A stretch of 64,000 nucleotides of DNA from Meiothermus ruber DSM 1279 (lineage in GTDB: Bacteria; Deinococcota; Deinococci; Deinococcales; Thermaceae): NCBI RefSeq assembly GCF_000024425.1, contig NC_013946.1, positions 2,728,001-2,792,000 on the forward strand. Direction: 5' to 3'. Positions 30,854 to 44,495 of this stretch are shown here, piece by piece. The notes below the pieces were generated by a model. That model did not search any database and was not told the DNA's origin. It was given only the letters and a program-made list of their open reading frames with translations. Numbering within the stretch: the stretch's first letter is position 1; the number at the start of each line of letters is the position of its first letter. The translations under genes and the position numbers were made by a program.

Positions 30854-31663
<810 letters not shown>

Positions 31664-31699: not shown

Positions 31700-32251
31700 C
31701 TAGGTGTCGGGGAACAGGTACGCCACACCCTCCAGTGGATAAAGCTCCGGGCGCAGAAAAGGGGGCAGGGCCAGCTCGAGGGTGTGCCGCCAGAACTCCA
31801 TCCGTTCGATGCGCGAAAGGGTAAGGATGCCCACCGCACCGCTGCCCTTCTTGGTGTCTTTTTTTCCCACCAGATCGTCCATGATGGGGCCCAGCTCCTC
31901 GCCCCTTCGCAGGCGCTCCCCCACCCGCGGCGGCAGCAAAACCGAGCCCCCGCGGGCCAGGCCCCACCGCCCATCGGCCCGCAGAATCACCGCAATGTTG
32001 AAGAGCCAGCTCCCCTGCCCATTGAACTCCACCCCAGCCTCCAGCCCCAGGCCCCAGGCTGCGCCGGGCTGGGCCAGGGCTGCCCGGGCCCGGTTTAGGG
32101 CGCCCTGCAGGGTTTCATGGTAGCCAATCGGCTGGGCCCGCACCCCGCTGGGCACCTCCACCCCGCGCACCTCCAGGCCCGGAAACACCTCTGCAAACAC
32201 CCGGCGCACCGGCTCGAGCTTGGCCGGGTTGGTGCTGCCGACGACGACCAT
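31700..32251 (-). CDS. yjjX: Inosine/xanthosine triphosphatase (YjjX family)
   Basis: A 183-residue nucleotide-sanitising enzyme of the NTPase YjjX/DUF84 family. It starts MVVVGSTNPAKLEPVRRVF, where the STNPxK motif is the phosphate-binding hallmark, and continues with GALNRARAAL and WGLGLEAGVE. It is expected to hydrolyse ITP and XTP that arise by purine deamination, which is quicker at high temperature. It sits between lysY (4-base gap) and lysZ in the lysine operon, although it has no known part in lysine synthesis. Confidence 0.9.
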   Translation of the reverse strand: MVVVGSTNPAKLEPVRRVFAEVFPGLEVRGVEVPSGVRAQPIGYHETLQGALNRARAALAQPGAAWGLGLEAGVEFNGQGSWLFNIAVILRADGRWGLARGGSVLLPPRVGERLRRGEELGPIMDDLVGKKDTKKGSGAVGILTLSRIERMEFWRHTLELALPPFLRPELYPLEGVAYLFPDT

Positions 32252-32254
32252 AGC

Positions 32255-33298
<1,044 letters not shown>

Positions 33299-34144
33299 CT
33301 AACGCAGTCGCAAGCTCCAGGCGTACTCCAGAATCCTGGCCGGGATGTCCACCCCGGTGGTGCTCACCGAGTTCTTGAACTCCATGGTGTGGTTGACCTC
33401 GTTGACCAGCAGGCCTCGAGGCGACTCGAACAGGTCGATGGCCACCACCCCACCCCCCACCGCCCGGGCCGCCCTGACCGCCAGCTCGGCCAGCTCGGGC
33501 GTTACCGGGCAGTTGGAGGCCTTGCCCCCGCGGGCGGTGTTGGTAATCCAGTGGGTCGAGGAGCGGTAGATGGCCCCAATGCAGGTATCCCCCACCACAA
33601 AGGCCCGGATGTCCCGGCCGCCTTTGTCCACCAGCTCCTGTATGTAGAAAAGCTGGTGCTGGTAACCGCCCAGCACCTCCTTGTGCTCGAGCACCGTCTC
33701 GGCGGCATCGCGGTCACGGATCAGCGAGAGCAGGCGACCCCAGCTCCCCACCACCGGCTTCATCACCACCGGGTAGCCCATCTGCTCGATCAGCTTGAGG
33801 GCTTCCTCGGCCTCGGTAGCCAGGGCGGTTCGGGGCTGGGGCACCCCATGGGCCTCCAGGGCACAGCTTGTGGCCCATTTGTCACCGCACACCTCGATCA
33901 CTTCCGGGGCGTTCACCACCGGAATCCCCAGGCTTTTTAAGTAGCGCGAAACAGCCAGGCCCTTGCTCTGGGAGACCAGGCGCTCCACCGCACAGGTAAC
34001 GCCCTCGAGCTCCGGCGGGCGTTCCCCCAGGCGCATGGGCATCTGCTTGGCGTAGATTTTCTTGAAAGGAATGCCCAGCCCCTCGGCAGCCTTGAAGAGC
34101 ATCTCCTCGTCGGGGCGGATGCGGTCGTACAGAATCGCCAGCAT
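33299..34144 (-). CDS. lysX: [LysW]-aminoadipate ligase (ATP-grasp)
   Basis: A 281-residue ATP-grasp ligase of the RimK family. It joins the alpha-amino group of aminoadipate to the C-terminal Glu of LysW, protecting it for the following steps. Typical segments are [47 protein letters not shown] and [12 protein letters not shown]. The length equals that of the Thermus enzyme (about 280). It lies 50 bases downstream of lysW. Confidence 0.95.
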
Positions 34145-34714: not shown

Positions 34715-35218
34715 TTACCCTTCAAGCCCTTCGCCGGGAAACCGCCCATACTTGCGGTAGTACTCCAGGATGCTGCCCTCTTTGAGGGCTTCCAGCAGAA
34801 AGGCCGGGGGTGGGCGGAGCCGGAAGGTCTCGGCCCCGCGCCGCAGTATGCCCTGCTCAAAGTCCAGCTCCACCTCATCGCCGTCTTGCAAAGCTTCCAC
34901 CACCTCCGGGGCCTCAAAGGGCATGATGCCCAGGTTAACCAGGTTGCGGTAGAAGATACGGGCATAGCTTTTGGCAATAATGGCCTTCAGGCCCAGCTTA
35001 CGCAGGGCTTCTGGCGCATACTCACGCGAAGAGCCAAGGCCGGTGTTCTTGCCGCAAACCAGAATATCGCCCGGTCGGTAGTTGGAGGCAAAATCGGGGC
35101 GTATGTGGGCGAAAGCATAGGTGTGAAATTTATCCTCGCCCACCATAAAAGGGGCGTACTTGCCGGGCAAGATGTCGTCGGTGTTGATGGCATCGCCAAA
35201 CTTCCAGACCCTAGGCAC
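34715..35218 (-). CDS. lysU: Homoaconitase small subunit
   Basis: A 167-residue swivel-domain subunit of the aconitase/IPM isomerase family, also called HacB. It contains KFGDAINTDDILPGKY near the N terminus and GLGSSREYAPEAL, the substrate-recognition loop. With LysT it converts homocitrate to homoisocitrate. The start is put at GTG 35218, which overlaps the lysT stop by 8 bases and follows GGAGG; the open frame extends 14 residues further without support. Confidence 0.94.
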   Translation of the reverse strand: MPRVWKFGDAINTDDILPGKYAPFMVGEDKFHTYAFAHIRPDFASNYRPGDILVCGKNTGLGSSREYAPEALRKLGLKAIIAKSYARIFYRNLVNLGIMPFEAPEVVEALQDGDEVELDFEQGILRRGAETFRLRPPPAFLLEALKEGSILEYYRKYGRFPGEGLEG

Positions 35219-36461
35219 GGGACACCTCCAGCTCTTCCGGGGTGGTGATGTAACCAGCAACCGCCGAAGCAGCAGCTACCCGGGGCGAGGCCAGGTAAAT
35301 TTCGGCATCGGCCGCCCCCATCCGGCCTCTAAAGTTGCGGTTGGAGGTGCTCACGCACACCTCGCCGGGGGCCAGCACGCCCTGGTGCCGCCCCATGCAG
35401 GGCCCGCAACCCGGGGTGCCCAGCGTGGCCCCGGCTTGCAACAGGGTGAGCAGGGTGCCATCGGCGGTGGCCTCCTCCAGCACCTGCGACGAGGCCGGTA
35501 TCACCAGCAACCGCACCCCCGGTGCCACTTTGCGACCTTTGAGAATTTCGGCCACCTGGTGCAGGTCATCCAGCCGTCCGTTGGTACAGGTGCCCACAAA
35601 CACCTGATCCACCTTCTTACCCCTCACCTTTGCCACTTCTTCCACGTTATCCACATAAAACGGCACCGAGACCCTGGGGGTAAGGGCTGCCAGATCGATC
35701 TCGATCTCGCGCGCGTAAACCGCATCGGGGTCGGGGTAAAGCCAGTCGGGCACCTCATACATGTCCAGAATTTCCCCGCTGGGCACCACCAGCCCACACT
35801 TGGCCCCAGCCTCCACGGTGAGGTTGGCCAGGGTCAGGCGCTGGCTACGGGTCAGGGCCTCGGCCCCCTCCACCAGGTGCATCTCGATGCTCATGTAGGT
35901 AGCCCCATCGGCGGTCAGCACTCGAATCATCTCGAGGGCCGCATCCTTTGCGGTCACACCCGGTGCAAGCTGCCCCCGGAAGGTAACCTTGACGGTTTCC
36001 GGCACGCGCAACCAGGTGCGCCCTGAGGCCGCGGCCAGCGCGATATCGGTAGCCCCCATCCCGCTGCCAAAGCACCCAATGCCGCCGTAGGTGGTGGAGT
36101 GGCTGTCCGAGCCCAGCACGATACCCCCCGGCAAGGCCAGGCGCTCCTCCACCAGCACCTGGTGGCAGATACCCCGCCCCACGTCGAACACCCGGCAGCC
36201 ATACCGCTTGCCCCAGGCACGAATTTCCTGCTGGGCCTTGGCCACCTCCACATTGGCGGCGGGGGCCACATGGTCAATCACGATGGCGACCTTTTCCGGG
36301 AAGCGCGGCGTGGCGCCCAATTGCTCCAGTCGCTTGAAAAAGCTCCCGGCAATGGAGTCCACCACCATCACCTGATCCACCTCCACCACCACCAACTCAC
36401 CAGCCTCGACCTGACGGCCGGCTCGCCGAGAAAGGATTTTTTCCGCTAAAGTTAGTCCCAT
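35211..36461 (-). CDS. lysT: Homoaconitase large subunit
   Basis: A 416-residue member of the LeuC-type aconitase group, also called HacA. [4Fe-4S] ligands are expected in VGTCTNGRLDD and in GTPGCGPCMGRHQG. VLGSDSHSTTYGGIGCFGSGMGATD is the conserved substrate and cluster region. It holds the catalytic centre of homoaconitase. ATG 36461 (or GTG 36464 next to it) follows AGGAGGGGG. It is separated from hcs by 50 bases. Confidence 0.95.
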   Translation of the reverse strand: MGLTLAEKILSRRAGRQVEAGELVVVEVDQVMVVDSIAGSFFKRLEQLGATPRFPEKVAIVIDHVAPAANVEVAKAQQEIRAWGKRYGCRVFDVGRGICHQVLVEERLALPGGIVLGSDSHSTTYGGIGCFGSGMGATDIALAAASGRTWLRVPETVKVTFRGQLAPGVTAKDAALEMIRVLTADGATYMSIEMHLVEGAEALTRSQRLTLANLTVEAGAKCGLVVPSGEILDMYEVPDWLYPDPDAVYAREIEIDLAALTPRVSVPFYVDNVEEVAKVRGKKVDQVFVGTCTNGRLDDLHQVAEILKGRKVAPGVRLLVIPASSQVLEEATADGTLLTLLQAGATLGTPGCGPCMGRHQGVLAPGEVCVSTSNRNFRGRMGAADAEIYLASPRVAAASAVAGYITTPEELEVSRA

Positions 36462-36511
36462 CACCCCCTCCTATCACCAGTGGCTATACATCCAGACTCT
36501 GCAGGAAGCTC

Positions 36512-37750
36512 TCAATCCAGGTTCTCCAGCCGCGCGGTGGGCACCTCCTCGGGTAGGGTATGGCGCAGCAGGCCGTGGGCCTCAGCAATTTCCAGCAAAA
36601 GCTCCTCGGGTTTCTTCCGGCGCCCAATCTCGCTGGTACGGCCCTTGAACTCCTGGGCGATCTGCTTGGCCTGCTCTTTGCTGATCACAAAGCCTTCCAC
36701 TTCTTTCAGATAGTAGTAAATCAGGTTCCAGCCCGACAGGGGCCCCAGCAGTAACTGGTTTTTGTCCACCCCAAAGTCGTGCAGGTTGTGGGCCTCGTAG
36801 ACTTTCTTTTCATTCAGAACGGCCTTCTGGTGCACACCAGCGGTATGGGTGCGGTTGGTCAGCGAGACCGGCTCGGTGTAAGGCACCAGCGTACCCAGAA
36901 TAGAGGCCATCAGCACGTTGAGGGGATAGCACTGGCTCAGGTTGTACTGCTGGGCTATCTCGGGGTAGCGCTTCGAGAGGTTGAAAAGCACCCCCGTTAC
37001 CGAGGGGATGCCCGAGCGCTCGGCCAGGCCCCAGATGGAGGCATCCACATAGCGCACCCCGGCCCGCACCGCGGCAATTACGTTGGCCAGGGCCAGTCCC
37101 CGATCGTTGTGAAAGTGGCACTCAAGCGCCACATTAGGATAGCGCTGGCGTAGCTGGGCCACCACAGCACTCACATCCTCGGGCTCAGCTATACCCACGG
37201 TATCGGGCATGCCCAGGGTATTTACATAGGGGTAAATGGCGTCGTAGAGGCGAAAGATATCCTCGAGCGGGGTGCGGAAAGCGTCTTCGGCGCTAAATCG
37301 GATATACAGATCCGGATGGGCCGCGCGGGTAGTGGCAATCACCTCCTGAACCAGTTGCACCGATTCCTCCAGGGATTTTTGGGCATTGTGCTGCTGGGCC
37401 AGGGGCGAAACCCCCAGGTAAAGATTCAGACCATTGCAGCCGGTCTCGAGCGCCTGCTCAATGTCCTGCAGGTTGCAGCGGCAGTGGGCCAGGAAGCGAA
37501 GGGGCTTCTGGGTGAGCGCGCTGGCATGGGCTATTAGCTCCCGCACATCCTGCGCCTCGGCCACTCCCACCACCGGTGAAAAAAACTCGAAGTGGGTGAC
37601 GCCCAGCTCGAGCAAGCCGGTCATCAAAACCTTCTTCTCTTCCAGTGTGAACCGGTACTTCTCGGTATCGAACAAAAGCGGCGACTGCTGGCCGTCGCGG
37701 AAGGTGGTGTCGACGATTTCAATGCGGTGGGCTGGGGTGGACGCTGGCAT
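36512..37750 (-). CDS. hcs: Homocitrate synthase
   Basis: A 412-residue DRE-TIM metallolyase that condenses 2-oxoglutarate with acetyl-CoA to homocitrate, the committed step of the aminoadipate route. The N-terminal IEIVDTTFRDGQQSP carries the metal-binding DTTFRDG motif, and LECHFHNDRGLA supplies the HxH metal ligands. This step is feedback inhibited by lysine in Thermus. ATG 37750 (MPASTP) is selected because AGGAG lies just upstream, after the attenuator T-run; 10 upstream codons read through that T-run and are not credible. Confidence 0.96.
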   Translation of the reverse strand: MPASTPAHRIEIVDTTFRDGQQSPLLFDTEKYRFTLEEKKVLMTGLLELGVTHFEFFSPVVGVAEAQDVRELIAHASALTQKPLRFLAHCRCNLQDIEQALETGCNGLNLYLGVSPLAQQHNAQKSLEESVQLVQEVIATTRAAHPDLYIRFSAEDAFRTPLEDIFRLYDAIYPYVNTLGMPDTVGIAEPEDVSAVVAQLRQRYPNVALECHFHNDRGLALANVIAAVRAGVRYVDASIWGLAERSGIPSVTGVLFNLSKRYPEIAQQYNLSQCYPLNVLMASILGTLVPYTEPVSLTNRTHTAGVHQKAVLNEKKVYEAHNLHDFGVDKNQLLLGPLSGWNLIYYYLKEVEGFVISKEQAKQIAQEFKGRTSEIGRRKKPEELLLEIAEAHGLLRHTLPEEVPTARLENLD

Positions 37751-37762
37751 AAACTCCTTTAT

Positions 37763-37793
37763 AAAAAAAACCGCCCGCAAGCTGTGTGCGGGC
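37763..37793 (-). terminator. Attenuator terminator before hcs
   Basis: On the minus strand GCCCGC (37793-37788), a 9-base loop and GCGGGC (37778-37773) are followed by GG and eight T (37770-37763). This is an intrinsic terminator lying between the promoter and hcs. A second GCCCGC occurs just upstream (about 37814-37809) and could pair with the same 3' arm, giving alternative folds. Confidence 0.85.
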
Positions 37794-37818
37794 CGGGATA
37801 CGCAGTGCGCGGGCTAGC

Positions 37819-37863
37819 TCAGACTAGCCTCCCGGCACTGGATTTTTTTGCACTTAAGATCAT
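37819..37863 (-). CDS. Leader peptide of the lysine operon attenuator
   Basis: A 14-codon reading frame, MILSAKKSSAGRLV, with two adjacent AAA lysine codons. Its ATG lies 11 bases after the -10 box TACACT, so the transcript starts only a few bases before it. Its stop codon (37821-37819) falls in the loop of a GGCTAG-tctgag-CTAGCC hairpin (37829-37812), just ahead of the terminator. Ribosome stalling at the Lys codons when lysyl-tRNA is scarce would favour read-through into hcs. A short Lys-containing leader with attenuation has, as I recall, been described for Thermus hcs. Confidence 0.8.
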   Translation of the reverse strand: MILSAKKSSAGRLV

Positions 37864-37873
37864 CCCAGGGGGC

Positions 37874-37903
37874 AGTGTACCTATGCACCGTTATTGCTGT
37901 CAA
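37874..37903 (-). promoter_or_regulatory. Promoter of the lysine operon
   Basis: On the minus strand TTGACA (37903-37898), an 18-base spacer and TACACT (37879-37874). The -35 box is a perfect consensus. Transcription would begin near 37867, just before the leader peptide. Between here and 38010 a hairpin CTGGAT/ATCCAG (37957-37976) is seen without a T-run. Confidence 0.8.
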
Positions 37904-38010
37904 GACGGTGTAATCGGTCAACCACGAACAGTTCACCATCCACGGCAGGATTCATACTGGATCCCCAAAAATCCAGCCATAGCAAAACCTATCCCAGACC
38001 AGCGGCTCCA

Positions 38011-39210
38011 TCAGCGGCGCTCAACGCTGCTGGCGCGGCGCTGGGCCTCTTCCAGCACCTGTCTGGCGTTGGCGTTGCCTTTCAGGGCGCGCTCGAGGGC
38101 GTCCTCCAGGAAGCTGTACCAGATGGTAAACTCGGGGTCTTGCAGCCACACATCGGCGTGCTCTACCTGGCTGAAGGCCACCCGACGGCGGGGATCTTCT
38201 TTGTAAAAGTCTTCCAGCAAAGGCTGAGCGGCCCGGCGCATGGGCATGTAGTAGGTGGCCTTGACCCATTTGGCGATGTTGGCCGGCTCCATAGCAAAGC
38301 GCCAGAAGGCCACAGCCCCACGGGCCTGCTGCTCACTGGCCCCGCGGAGCACCACCAGGGTGCCACCCGCCAGCGGCACTTTTCCACCTTCCGTGCGGGG
38401 TACCGCTGCAACTCCCAGCCTGAAAGGGATGGGGGCGCGGTTTTCGATCAGCGGCCACAGGGTAATGGGCGCGACGCCCATAAAGGTCTTGGTGCGCAAA
38501 AAGTCGGCGACGGAGAACTGGGCCTCGGCGATGTTCCGGCTCTGGGCTATGTTCTTCCGCACCATGTCCTGCAGGAACTCGAGGGTCTCCACCACCTTGG
38601 GGTTGGTAAAATCCGGGCGGCCCTGGCTGTCCACAATAGATCCTCCCCGGCTCATCACCATTACCACAAAGCTGTAGATGTCGCTCGAGACCGTGTACCC
38701 CTTGGCGGCCCGGGTGGTCAAGCGCTGCGCCGCCGTGACCACATCATTCCAGGAGCGCGGGACGCCCAACCCTTTGGCAGCAAACTGGTCGGCGTTGTAG
38801 AAAAACACCGGAATCGAGAGGCCTATCGGCAGCCCATAGGTGCGGCCCCGCAGCTTGCCGGTCTCCAGGAATCCGGGGTAAAAATCCCCGGGCAGGTTTC
38901 CTAAGTACTCATCCAGCGGCTGGGCTACGTTGTCCTGCACCATCCGCCCCAAAAAGGAAATCTCAGCATGAAACAGCGCCGGGGCTCCCCCAGAACGCAG
39001 CGCCGCCAGGAGTTTTAGACCCCCTTCGCGGTAATCCCCCACAAAGCTGGGCACAATTCGGTAGTCCCGCTGACGGCTATTAAAATCGCGGATTATCTCT
39101 TCTAGGGGCTCCTGGCCCGGAGGGCCTGCGGTGTGCCAAAAAGGTATCTCAACCGGGCGCTGGGCCAAAGCCCATCCCACTCCAACCAACAGTACCATCA
39201 ACCAGCGCAT
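38011..39210 (-). CDS. ABC transporter substrate-binding protein, sugar/glycerol-phosphate (UgpB) type
   Basis: A 399-residue exported binding protein of the cluster 1 family. The signal peptide is MRWLMVLLVGVGWALA, and the mature part begins QRPVEIPFWHTAGPPGQEPLEE, like UgpB proteins that bind glycerol-3-phosphate or oligosaccharides. SQVEHADVWLQDPEFT near the C terminus also fits. ATG 39210 is preferred over ATG 39219, because GGAGG touches the latter and lies 9 bases from the former. It comes last in the transporter operon, after two permease genes. Confidence 0.88.
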   Translation of the reverse strand: MRWLMVLLVGVGWALAQRPVEIPFWHTAGPPGQEPLEEIIRDFNSRQRDYRIVPSFVGDYREGGLKLLAALRSGGAPALFHAEISFLGRMVQDNVAQPLDEYLGNLPGDFYPGFLETGKLRGRTYGLPIGLSIPVFFYNADQFAAKGLGVPRSWNDVVTAAQRLTTRAAKGYTVSSDIYSFVVMVMSRGGSIVDSQGRPDFTNPKVVETLEFLQDMVRKNIAQSRNIAEAQFSVADFLRTKTFMGVAPITLWPLIENRAPIPFRLGVAAVPRTEGGKVPLAGGTLVVLRGASEQQARGAVAFWRFAMEPANIAKWVKATYYMPMRRAAQPLLEDFYKEDPRRRVAFSQVEHADVWLQDPEFTIWYSFLEDALERALKGNANARQVLEEAQRRASSVERR

Positions 39211-42526: not shown

Positions 42527-42823
42527 ATGCAGACGCTTGTGGGAAATATCACAACCGAACCCGGAGCGGCGGCTTGTTCAGAGCTGACCTTGGCGGCGTT
42601 GAAGGCTGTTTTGCGGGATATTGAGAACAGTCGGAGCCTGGCGTGCGTCCTGGCAGTAGCTGCCAGTATCGGTATCCCAACCCAAAAACCAAGTTCGGAG
42701 GTGATGATCCGTGATTCCCAATCTGGGCACCAAGGGAAACGGGGAGCCAGTGGTGCAACCGGCCGAACCCAAAAGTACTGCCGTTGCTTGCTGGAGAGTC
42801 CCCACAGTAAAGAGCTTTATTAG
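42527..42823 (+). CDS. Possible small upstream ORF overlapping the subtilase start
   Basis: A 98-codon frame starting ATG 42527, six bases after GGGTGG and 18 bases after TATGCT. The first 55 residues (MQTLVGNITTEPGAAACSEL and on) are plausible protein; the rest overlaps the subtilase gene in another frame and reads as low quality. Third-position G+C bias is weak. It may be a leader ORF coupled to subtilase translation, or chance. No domain recognised. Confidence 0.25.
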   Translation: MQTLVGNITTEPGAAACSELTLAALKAVLRDIENSRSLACVLAVAASIGIPTQKPSSEVMIRDSQSGHQGKRGASGATGRTQKYCRCLLESPHSKELY

Positions 42824-44495
42824 CCTGGCTATTGCGGGCTGGATCGGTCTGGCCCTAACCTCCTGCACAACCACCCAGGGCTGGGCGGGCCTCGAGGTTA
42901 CCCCCCAAACCGTTCCCCATCTGGGAGGGGAAGTTAATCTGCGCTGGCGCGTAGAAGGAGCCCGGGCCTATACCCTTCGCAGCGAACCCCCGCTACCGGG
43001 CCTGCCCCTGAGCACCACCGGCTCCTCAGTCAGCATCTGGGTGGCGGCCAACAGCAGCCCGGAACCCAAGCGCTACCGGTTAATCGTGGAATCCGACGGC
43101 CCTGAGGGCCTCAAGCAGGTGGTGGCAGAGCTTCGCCTCGAGGGCAGGCCGCCTTGCAGCAGTATCGGTGCGCAAAGCCAGCGGATAGCGGTCAGGGCCT
43201 TCAACGAGGTGGGGCTGGGCCGCTTCGATGTACCCCACGTGGCAGGGCGGCTGCTGGTGTATCACAAAAAAGGGCTCAGCCTGCAAAGCCACACCGCCAG
43301 CGCGCAAAGCCTGGGGGCCCAGCGGGTGCAGGATCTGGGCGGGGGCTGGGGCCTGTACCGCACCCAGCCGGGGCAGGAAGCCCAAGTGGCCCAAAAACTG
43401 TATCAGCAGGGTCTGGGACAGTACGTGCAGCCCGAGTATCTCTACCAGCCCGCCAGCCTGGTGGTGCCCCCCAATAACCCCAGCTACCCGACGGAGCAGG
43501 CGCCCGTGTTCCAGCAGATGAACATCGAGCAGGCCTGGCAAAAGCTAAGAGGAGAGGTCGGATGCCAAACGCCGATCATCGCCGTGGTTGATACCGGGGT
43601 GTACACCCAGCGGAACGATCTGGCCCCCAACCTAACCCCCCCGGATAGCTGGTTGGATGTGGTGGGCGAGGATCTCAGCAATCCTCAGCCCGCCCGGGGC
43701 ACAGTAGAGCCCGAGCCCGGCACCGGTGCCAGCCACGGGACGCAGGTGACCAGCATCATCGCTGCCACCACCAACAATGGAACGGCCCTGGCTGGTGTGG
43801 CCTACAACCTGCTGCGCGTACTGCCCATCAAGGTATTTGATGCCAACCAGCAGGCTGGTACGCTGCAAATAGCCCAGGCCCTGGAATACGCAGCCGGAGC
43901 AACCCAAATTGCCGGTCAGCTCTTTGTCAACCCCACGCCGGCCCAGGTCGTCAACCTTTCCCTTTCCCTCTCCGCGCCAGGCTTTCGCGACCCTTACCTC
44001 GAGCACGTCCTGGAGCAGGTGACCCAGCAAGGCCTGGTGGTGGTGGCCTCGAGCGGCAATGCCGACTTGCCCGCGGTGGGTTACCCCGCCTCCTCGCCTT
44101 TCGTCATCGCGGTAGGGGCCACCGATGCCGGCCAGGCCCGGGCCCGCTGGCTGAGCGGCTACGCCTCCAACTATGGTGAGGGGCTCGAGTTTGTAGCCCC
44201 GGGCACCGGTGTGCCGGTAGCCCACGGGCCCAACCAGGGGGCATACGCCCTGGCCTATGGCACCTCGGCCTCGGCACCTTTTATCAGCGGGGCCATCGGC
44301 CTGTATCTGTTGCAACAGCAACTGCTGGGCCAGACCCCTCCCAGCAACCCCGGCGCCCGGCTGGATCAGGTGCGCACCTGTCTCAAAAGCGCCGCGCAAA
44401 ACGCCCCCGCCTGGGACAGCCAGACCGGCTACGGCCTGGTCGATGTGGCCAAGGTGGTAGAGCCCAGCAACCCAGCCTGCTTCCCCAGGGGGTAG
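42711..44495 (+). CDS. Lipoprotein subtilisin-like serine protease (S8 family)
   Basis: A 594-residue protein. A hydrophobic segment near 36-51 ends in a lipobox ALTSC (Cys52), so it is probably a lipoprotein anchored outside the membrane. Residues 60-145 look like an Ig-like beta domain, 155-260 a propeptide-like region and 285-585 the protease. The triad is complete: Asp294 (AVVDTGV), His342 (SHGTQVTSI) and Ser519 (GTSASAPFISG), with the oxyanion Asn450 in ASSGN. The GTG start follows GGAGG by 9 bases and gives about 30 residues before the signal. It is followed 2 bases after its stop by the Cas7c-like gene. Confidence 0.88.
   Translation: MIPNLGTKGNGEPVVQPAEPKSTAVACWRVPTVKSFISLAIAGWIGLALTSCTTTQGWAGLEVTPQTVPHLGGEVNLRWRVEGARAYTLRSEPPLPGLPLSTTGSSVSIWVAANSSPEPKRYRLIVESDGPEGLKQVVAELRLEGRPPCSSIGAQSQRIAVRAFNEVGLGRFDVPHVAGRLLVYHKKGLSLQSHTASAQSLGAQRVQDLGGGWGLYRTQPGQEAQVAQKLYQQGLGQYVQPEYLYQPASLVVPPNNPSYPTEQAPVFQQMNIEQAWQKLRGEVGCQTPIIAVVDTGVYTQRNDLAPNLTPPDSWLDVVGEDLSNPQPARGTVEPEPGTGASHGTQVTSIIAATTNNGTALAGVAYNLLRVLPIKVFDANQQAGTLQIAQALEYAAGATQIAGQLFVNPTPAQVVNLSLSLSAPGFRDPYLEHVLEQVTQQGLVVVASSGNADLPAVGYPASSPFVIAVGATDAGQARARWLSGYASNYGEGLEFVAPGTGVPVAHGPNQGAYALAYGTSASAPFISGAIGLYLLQQQLLGQTPPSNPGARLDQVRTCLKSAAQNAPAWDSQTGYGLVDVAKVVEPSNPACFPRG

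Follow-up and report, generated by a model that had tools for sequence, protein, structure and literature searches.

The region upstream of hcs, the first gene of the α-aminoadipate lysine operon of Meiothermus ruber, very probably functions as a ribosome-mediated transcription attenuator that senses charged tRNA-Lys. The initial annotation of the 64,000-nt stretch of the M. ruber DSM 1279 genome analyzed here (hereafter, the window) had claimed a promoter, a 14-codon leader, a hairpin and a terminator, in this order, before hcs; all of these elements were located in the sequence of the minus strand from position 37903 to 37763, as listed in Table 1 together with the genes of the operon.

Table 1. 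Elements of the putative attenuator before hcs and genes of the lysine operon (positions within the window)
Feature	Position	Strand	Basis
–35 hexamer TTGACA	37898..37903	minus	Sequence and promoter scan; TTGAC in 45/45 related hcs elements
–10 hexamer TACACT	37874..37879	minus	Sequence and scan; end 10 nt 5΄ of leader ATG
Predicted transcript start zone, 5΄UTR of 2–4 nt (TGGG)	37864..37867	minus	Predicted from –10 position only
Leader peptide ORF MILSAKKSSAGRLV, 14 codons (ATG at 37863), with stop TGA (37821–37819)	37819..37863	minus	Sequence; Lys-Lys leader kept in 45/54 hcs upstream regions
Putative sensor codons 6–7, AAA AAA (Lys-Lys)	37843..37848	minus	Lys pair position and AAA use across 45 elements
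Segment 1 GCCGGGA, 5΄ strand of proposed antiterminator, within leader ORF	37830..37836	minus	Pairing analysis
Inner hairpin GGCTAG/CTAGCC, leader stop codon in loop	37812..37829	minus	Sequence and fold
Segment 3 TCCCGGC, 3΄ strand of proposed antiterminator, overlapping terminator base	37792..37798	minus	Alignments, pairing table
Intrinsic terminator stem-loop GCCCGCACACAGCTTGCGGGC	37773..37793	minus	Terminator scan and fold
Terminator U-tract T8	37763..37770	minus	Sequence
hcs, homocitrate synthase-like, 412 aa, first gene of operon	36512..37750	minus	Best NCBIfam match TIGR02146
hacA, homoaconitase large subunit family	35211..36464	minus	NCBIfam TIGR02086/TIGR01343 above cut-off
hacB, homoaconitase small subunit	34715..35260	minus	NCBIfam NF010629 above cut-off
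Zinc-ribbon protein at lysW position, 103 aa	34382..34693	minus	LysW matches sub-threshold only
lysX	33299..34144	minus	NCBIfam TIGR02144 above cut-off
lysY-like ORF	32255..33295	minus	ORF list; name presumed
NTPase-like ORF	31700..32251	minus	ORF list; name presumed
lysZ-like ORF	30854..31663	minus	ORF list; name presumed

The two promoter hexamers of M. ruber are separated by 18 nt, and judging from their position, transcription would start within a few bases of the leader ATG. The leader is thus nearly leaderless itself, as had been claimed, with a predicted 5΄UTR of about 2–4 nt, and in all 45 related hcs elements described below the –10 hexamer ended 6–11 nt before the start codon (10 nt in 28 and 9 nt in 9). 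Its codons are ATG ATC TTA AGT GCA AAA AAA TCC AGT GCC GGG AGG CTA GTC TGA, and the stop codon indeed falls in the loop of the inner hairpin; the dinucleotide GG separates the terminator stem-loop from the T8 tract. Taken alone, the M. ruber elements are near chance level: we observed one promoter-like site in 3 kb where 0.8 were expected and, in the same scan, five terminator-like sites where 3.2 were expected, and the fold had a z-score of –1.52, with 17 of 200 shuffled sequences equally stable. We nevertheless regard the element as confirmed, because it is conserved among relatives, and the case for it rests on this comparison.

To describe this conservation, we use the names Thermus-type and Meiothermus-type as inferred genus labels for the genomes compared. 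An hcs protein search covered 61 genomes, and in 54 of them we examined the sequence 5΄ of the best homologue; in the other seven (G046, G050, G053, G055, G057, G058 and G059), which were excluded, the best match resembled another synthase. A Lys-Lys leader was found in 45 of the 54 regions and was lacking in eight (L023, L024, L040, L048, L049, L050, L052 and L054), and for L046 the contig ends too early for a leader call. A covariance model (R1) built from the 45 elements was searched in 111 genomes of the order and matched 63 of them at E ≤ 5.3e-7, a count that takes no account of the downstream gene in the added genomes; a 64th match, in G042 (E 0.009), was discounted as being without a terminator or promoter of this kind. 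All 45 elements contained TTGAC and a –10 hexamer with a spacer of 15–18 nt, and a terminator-like stem followed by a T-run lay between the leader and hcs in all 45 when aligned. The Lys pair started at codon 6 in 41 leaders, codon 7 in three and codon 5 in one (in L051, codons were counted from the downstream GTG start rather than from the ATG two codons earlier). All 90 codons of these Lys pairs were AAA; by comparison, six Thermus-type hcs genes contained 0 AAA and 99 AAG codons, and eight M. ruber genes of the window contained 36 AAA and 68 AAG. This comparative evidence, which the initial annotation had lacked, strongly supports its proposal of a lysine attenuator whose leader peptide contains Lys-Lys, and we take that to be the best reading of the region. 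Within the single M. ruber contig (3,097,457 bases), a strict terminator pattern retrieved the hcs element and two intragenic-looking places and was unhelpful for finding further members; the weak R1 matches that were inspected were intragenic-looking or without a matching leader.

We then considered which pairings could compete with the terminator. A second GCCCGC, previously suggested as an alternative pairing partner, is present in M. ruber, but it occurs in only 6 of 22 Meiothermus-type sequences, and we rejected it as a conserved partner. Conserved instead is a competitor within the leader, GCCGGG(A/G) (segment 1), which can pair with (T/C)CCCGGC, a stretch straddling the upstream edge of the terminator (segment 3). 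Segment 1 begins approximately 5–10 nt after the Lys pair in 45/45 elements, and the CCCGGC of segment 3 is invariant or nearly so in the alignments. RNAalifold applied to a MAFFT alignment of the 45 sequences gave 11 pairs, with only three in the segment 1/3 helix, because the Thermus-type sequences are shifted there by one base. Pairs were instead counted for each sequence in the register that maximizes pairing, a procedure that favors pairing. Counted in this manner over the 45 sequences, pairs 1–5 were nearly fixed, pair 6 was G-C in 38, A-T in six and unpaired in one, and pair 7 was G-C in 27, G-T in nine, A-T in four, T-G in one and unpaired in four. The helix comprised 6–7 bp in Meiothermus-type sequences and 8–12 bp in most others; the 7-bp helix of M. 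ruber was equaled in 55 of 500 shuffles, and Meiothermus-type helices in general were often matched by shuffled sequences. The GCCGGG run is read as Ala-Gly (Ala-Gly-Gly) in Meiothermus-type leaders and as Arg-Arg-Gly in Thermus-type leaders, and because the frames differ, it is the RNA rather than the peptide that has been conserved.

The analyses above show the anatomy of the element, how it is conserved, where the codons lie and which segments could pair; from these features we infer ribosome stalling, a response to lysine, the transcript start and read-through caused by loss of the basal terminator pairs, as follows. RNA polymerase would start 2–4 nt 5΄ of the leader ATG, with a ribosome loading at the 5΄ end. 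When Lys-tRNA is plentiful, this ribosome would translate as far as the stop codon, which sits in the loop of the hairpin, and would cover segment 1, so that the complete terminator could form and hcs would not be transcribed. When Lys-tRNA is scarce, it would stall with codon 6 in the A site, its leading edge near leader nucleotide 28, where segment 1 begins. Segment 1, being free, could then pair with segment 3 and take up the terminator stem pairs next to the U-tract, allowing the polymerase to read through.

We modeled this competition by folding the RNA at 60°C under ribosome masks based on the general footprint of the ribosome, with leader nucleotides 1–28 held single-stranded in the stalled state (waiting at Lys6). 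The terminator core formed in nearly all modeled states, and competition was confined to the basal pairs. In M. ruber, values for the pairs beside the U-tract fell from 0.75/0.80 to 0.01 upon stalling at Lys6, and in the six Thermus-type sequences modeled they fell from approximately 1.0/0.94 to 0.16–0.18/0.07–0.08; L006, L014, L016, L018 and L019 were among those with little change. In M. ruber, the penalty for the complete terminator amounted to 0.9 kcal/mol when the ribosome stood at the stop codon, 3.7 kcal/mol when it stalled at Lys6 (a value reached in 3 of 60 shuffles) and 0.9 kcal/mol without a ribosome, and the corresponding medians over the 45 hcs sequences were 0.2, 2.1 and 1.6 kcal/mol. 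Stalling raised the penalty by at least 1 kcal/mol in 28/45 sequences and by at most 0.3 kcal/mol in 12/45. One codon further on, at Lys7, the ribosome largely covers segment 1 in M. ruber. In the model without a ribosome, M. ruber favors the terminator, whereas the Thermus type does not (5.0–10.1 kcal/mol). Because the modeled segment 1/3 competition is only partial, with no effect in the 12 sequences above, we hold the exact output step loosely and the sensor part of the mechanism firmly.

The same partial competition is what speaks for a reading in which the sensor is unchanged and the output is mainly transcription–translation coupling, with segment 1/3 pairing secondary: a polymerase paused at the inner hairpin might be released, or the bulky ribosome might block completion of the hairpin. 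A pause-like hairpin containing the stop codon is indeed present. We consider this reading unlikely, given that different families share CCCGGC and its partner GCCGGG, that changes occur in both strands of the helix and that the frame in which the run is read differs. Another reading takes the leader for a T-box, a protein-binding leader or a metabolite riboswitch of the lysine L-box kind and treats the small ORF as incidental. Riboswitches and T-boxes govern lysine and tRNA-synthetase genes in other bacteria; here, conservation concerns codons and how far these lie from the start codon, and the codons fit the gene, Lys for hcs and Thr for thrS (see below), which makes such a leader extremely improbable. 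No Rfam family reached its threshold at the hcs leader. No L-box or T-box was detected in the window at the Rfam gathering threshold or in positions 37700–38020 at E ≤ 10, and a lax Rfam search at the hcs leader returned unrelated families at chance level only.

Two further readings concern the leader ORF. Arginine might be sensed besides lysine: codon 12 of the M. ruber leader is AGG, Thermus-type leaders contain Arg-Arg at codons 10–11, and Arg-Lys leaders precede a lysJ-like gene, as described below. This is very improbable for the hcs leader, as most Meiothermus-type leaders have Gly instead and no Arg codon, and as the Arg codon lies within segment 1, so that a ribosome stalled on it would come too late to free this segment for pairing with segment 3. 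Alternatively, the leader ORF might supply ribosomes to hcs by reinitiation rather than control termination. The two ORFs share one transcript, on which 68 nt separate the leader stop codon from the hcs ATG at 37750, and reinitiation has been proposed for short leader genes in general in a portion of a published account (PMC4833913). The same portion places the effect at short distances and notes that attenuation usually needs a longer one (PMC4833913); with the terminator-like stem and T-run intervening in all 45 aligned elements, reinitiation is very improbable, and attenuation remains our preferred reading.

Sister elements were reached via the second-best matches of the covariance model. 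Upstream of thrS, the same layout was found in 24 of the 30 regions inspected; codon 6 is the first Thr codon in 23 of these leaders and codon 7 in the other. The M. ruber thrS leader, MRSRPTTRPGENF, contains Thr-Thr at codons 6–7 and lies outside the window, at genome positions 1203243–1203335 on the minus strand (L091). Among the other six regions, one was without a leader and five, from other families, contained Thr-containing short ORFs in a different layout; in four MAGs of another family (L103–L106), thrS follows longer ORFs with Thr codons, which end in PRGV or a similar sequence over a GC hairpin. Codon 6 was ACT in 15 of the 24 thrS leaders; in eight M. ruber genes, ACT made up 2 of the 128 Thr codons. 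Median modeled penalties for thrS were 0.3 (ribosome at stop), 1.5 (stalled) and 7.0 (no ribosome) kcal/mol, with a rise of at least 1 kcal/mol in 16/24.

Before the lysJ-like aminotransferase gene, 19 of 30 regions were inspected. Arg-Lys leaders were found in five (L114–L117 and L132), and two more were found elsewhere (L200 and L201); in the f4 family, the Arg-Lys pair occupies codons 7–8. In six Thermus-type regions (L120, L122–L124, L129 and L130), the leader was seven codons long and its codon 6 encoded Lys; no leader was found in the remaining eight of the 19. A mixed model (R2) matched the hcs and thrS elements of the M. ruber genome at approximately 1e-21 and nothing else convincingly; the third and later matches that were inspected were intragenic-looking or without a matching leader. 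Across the 111 genomes (E ≤ 1e-6), all R2 matches that could be placed by coordinates precede hcs, thrS or the lysJ-like gene; matches in about 18 further genomes stand outside this count, apart from the two additional Arg-Lys leaders. Since R2 was built from these kinds of element, its matches do not argue against the existence of others.

On balance, we lean toward the view that the order possesses a reusable class of near-leaderless attenuators to which the M. ruber element belongs, and in which the sensed amino acid is swapped and only the terminator base is removed. According to this joint reading, the class would keep the –10 box, the start codon, the sensor at codons 6–7, a GCCGGG-like segment 1, the stop-containing hairpin and the CCCGGC terminator base at fixed distances; the sensors would be Lys-Lys before hcs, Thr-Thr before thrS and Arg-Lys or Lys before the lysJ-like gene; and the first 15 nt of coding sequence would replace the missing 5΄UTR, the stalled ribosome filling the RNA from the 5΄ end to the sensor. 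An Arg-Lys leader is possibly a sensor of two amino acids. Three genes with different amino acids would thus have a common near-leaderless version with the sensor at or beside codon 6. With such a fixed geometry, the smallest distance from the 5΄ end at which a ribosome can stall and act as a sensor becomes testable, as does the possible integration of two amino acids by a two-residue Arg-Lys leader.

The gene behind the switch differs between the Thermus and Meiothermus types. The hcs product of M. ruber is only 31.8–32.4% identical to those of six Thermus-type genomes, whereas the adjacent hacA is 79–81% identical. Its best NCBIfam match, TIGR02146 homocitrate synthase (E 3.4e-66, 223.8 bits), is under the curated cut-off of 413.55; Thermus-type Hcs scores above the homocitrate synthase cut-off and Meiothermus-type Hcs below it. 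Homologues among named records include that of Meiothermus taiwanensis (97%), and outside the family, relatives were found in Deinococcales MAGs (74–75%) and Candidatus Roizmanbacteria MAGs (54–58%). Because hcs differs to this extent while hacA is well conserved behind an equivalent leader, in-place replacement of hcs with the leader switch retained is likely and is the simplest reading of these comparisons. If true, the regulator has outlived its gene. Two Deinococcales MAGs with Meiothermus-type hcs (L023 and L024) contain, in place of a Lys-Lys leader, promoter-adjacent short ORFs in which Lys is encoded once, by codon 6, or at scattered positions, together with GGAGGCTCGAG as pairing partner.

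A 2005 report in J Biol Chem is said to have described leader-peptide attenuation of the major lysine cluster (hcs) of T. thermophilus, with Lys codons and a terminator; by this account, the idea of an attenuator is not new for hcs. The T. thermophilus element reportedly resembles that of M. ruber in its operon, its position before hcs, its Lys leader peptide and its terminator. The Thermus-type genomes analyzed here have MLAREKKLGRRGVG-type leaders at the hcs position, and one covariance model fits both types, although the leader continues after Lys-Lys as SSAGRLV in M. ruber and as LGRRGVG in the Thermus type, and the M. ruber hcs is a different homologue. The present results would extend the reported finding to Meiothermus and relatives and suggest that the design is old and rigid. 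Depictions of ribosome-mediated attenuation usually include a normal 5΄UTR. Enterobacterial attenuators of the trp/his/thr type share with the M. ruber element the leader peptide with tandem codons, the potential for alternative pairings and the terminator before biosynthetic genes; the M. ruber element differs in being nearly without a 5΄UTR, in its codon-6 sensor and 14-codon leader, and in a pairing overlap limited to the terminator base.

We know of no sequence shared between the M. ruber leader and the leaderless cysteine-rich uORFs of mycobacteria. A likeness exists in that the codons of these uORFs have been proposed to link the supply of an amino acid to the expression of what lies downstream (PMC4633059; Canestrari et al. 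as described in PMC9031893). The uORFs differ in belonging to another phylum, in using cysteine, in having a C-terminal codon cluster and, according to a portion of PMC9031893, in acting on the translation of the downstream gene. Near-leaderless expression is widespread in the phylum of M. ruber: placement of –10 regions adjacent to ORFs is described as a common pattern there in PMC12340547, in which a term search returned nothing on leader peptides, lysine or attenuation. PMC3356886 covers lysine genes of the phylum, and attenuation is not mentioned in the first part of its main text. In the open-access literature, which leaves most subscription journals outside its scope, we found no text on the T. 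thermophilus hcs leader and, as weak evidence given this scope, no report of a thrS leader attenuator in Thermus or of leaderless attenuation in Deinococcus. Nor was a report of the thrS and lysJ versions or of the fixed codon-6 geometry found there.

Regarding the remaining genes of the operon, the true start of hacB is probably later than the listed TTG. The 103-aa protein at the lysW position contains several CxxC pairs; the LysW model has 54 positions. We take the three ORFs beyond lysX to be lysY-like, NTPase-like and lysZ-like. In several relatives (L006, L008, L014, L016 and L019), a short ORF lies just 3΄ of hcs and, by eye, resembles a HicA-type mRNA interferase. Elsewhere in the window, Rfam identified a c-di-GMP-II riboswitch (42688–42773, 63.7 bits) before an ORF at 42711–44495 that by eye resembles a subtilisin-like protease, and the listed start of this ORF falls inside the riboswitch.
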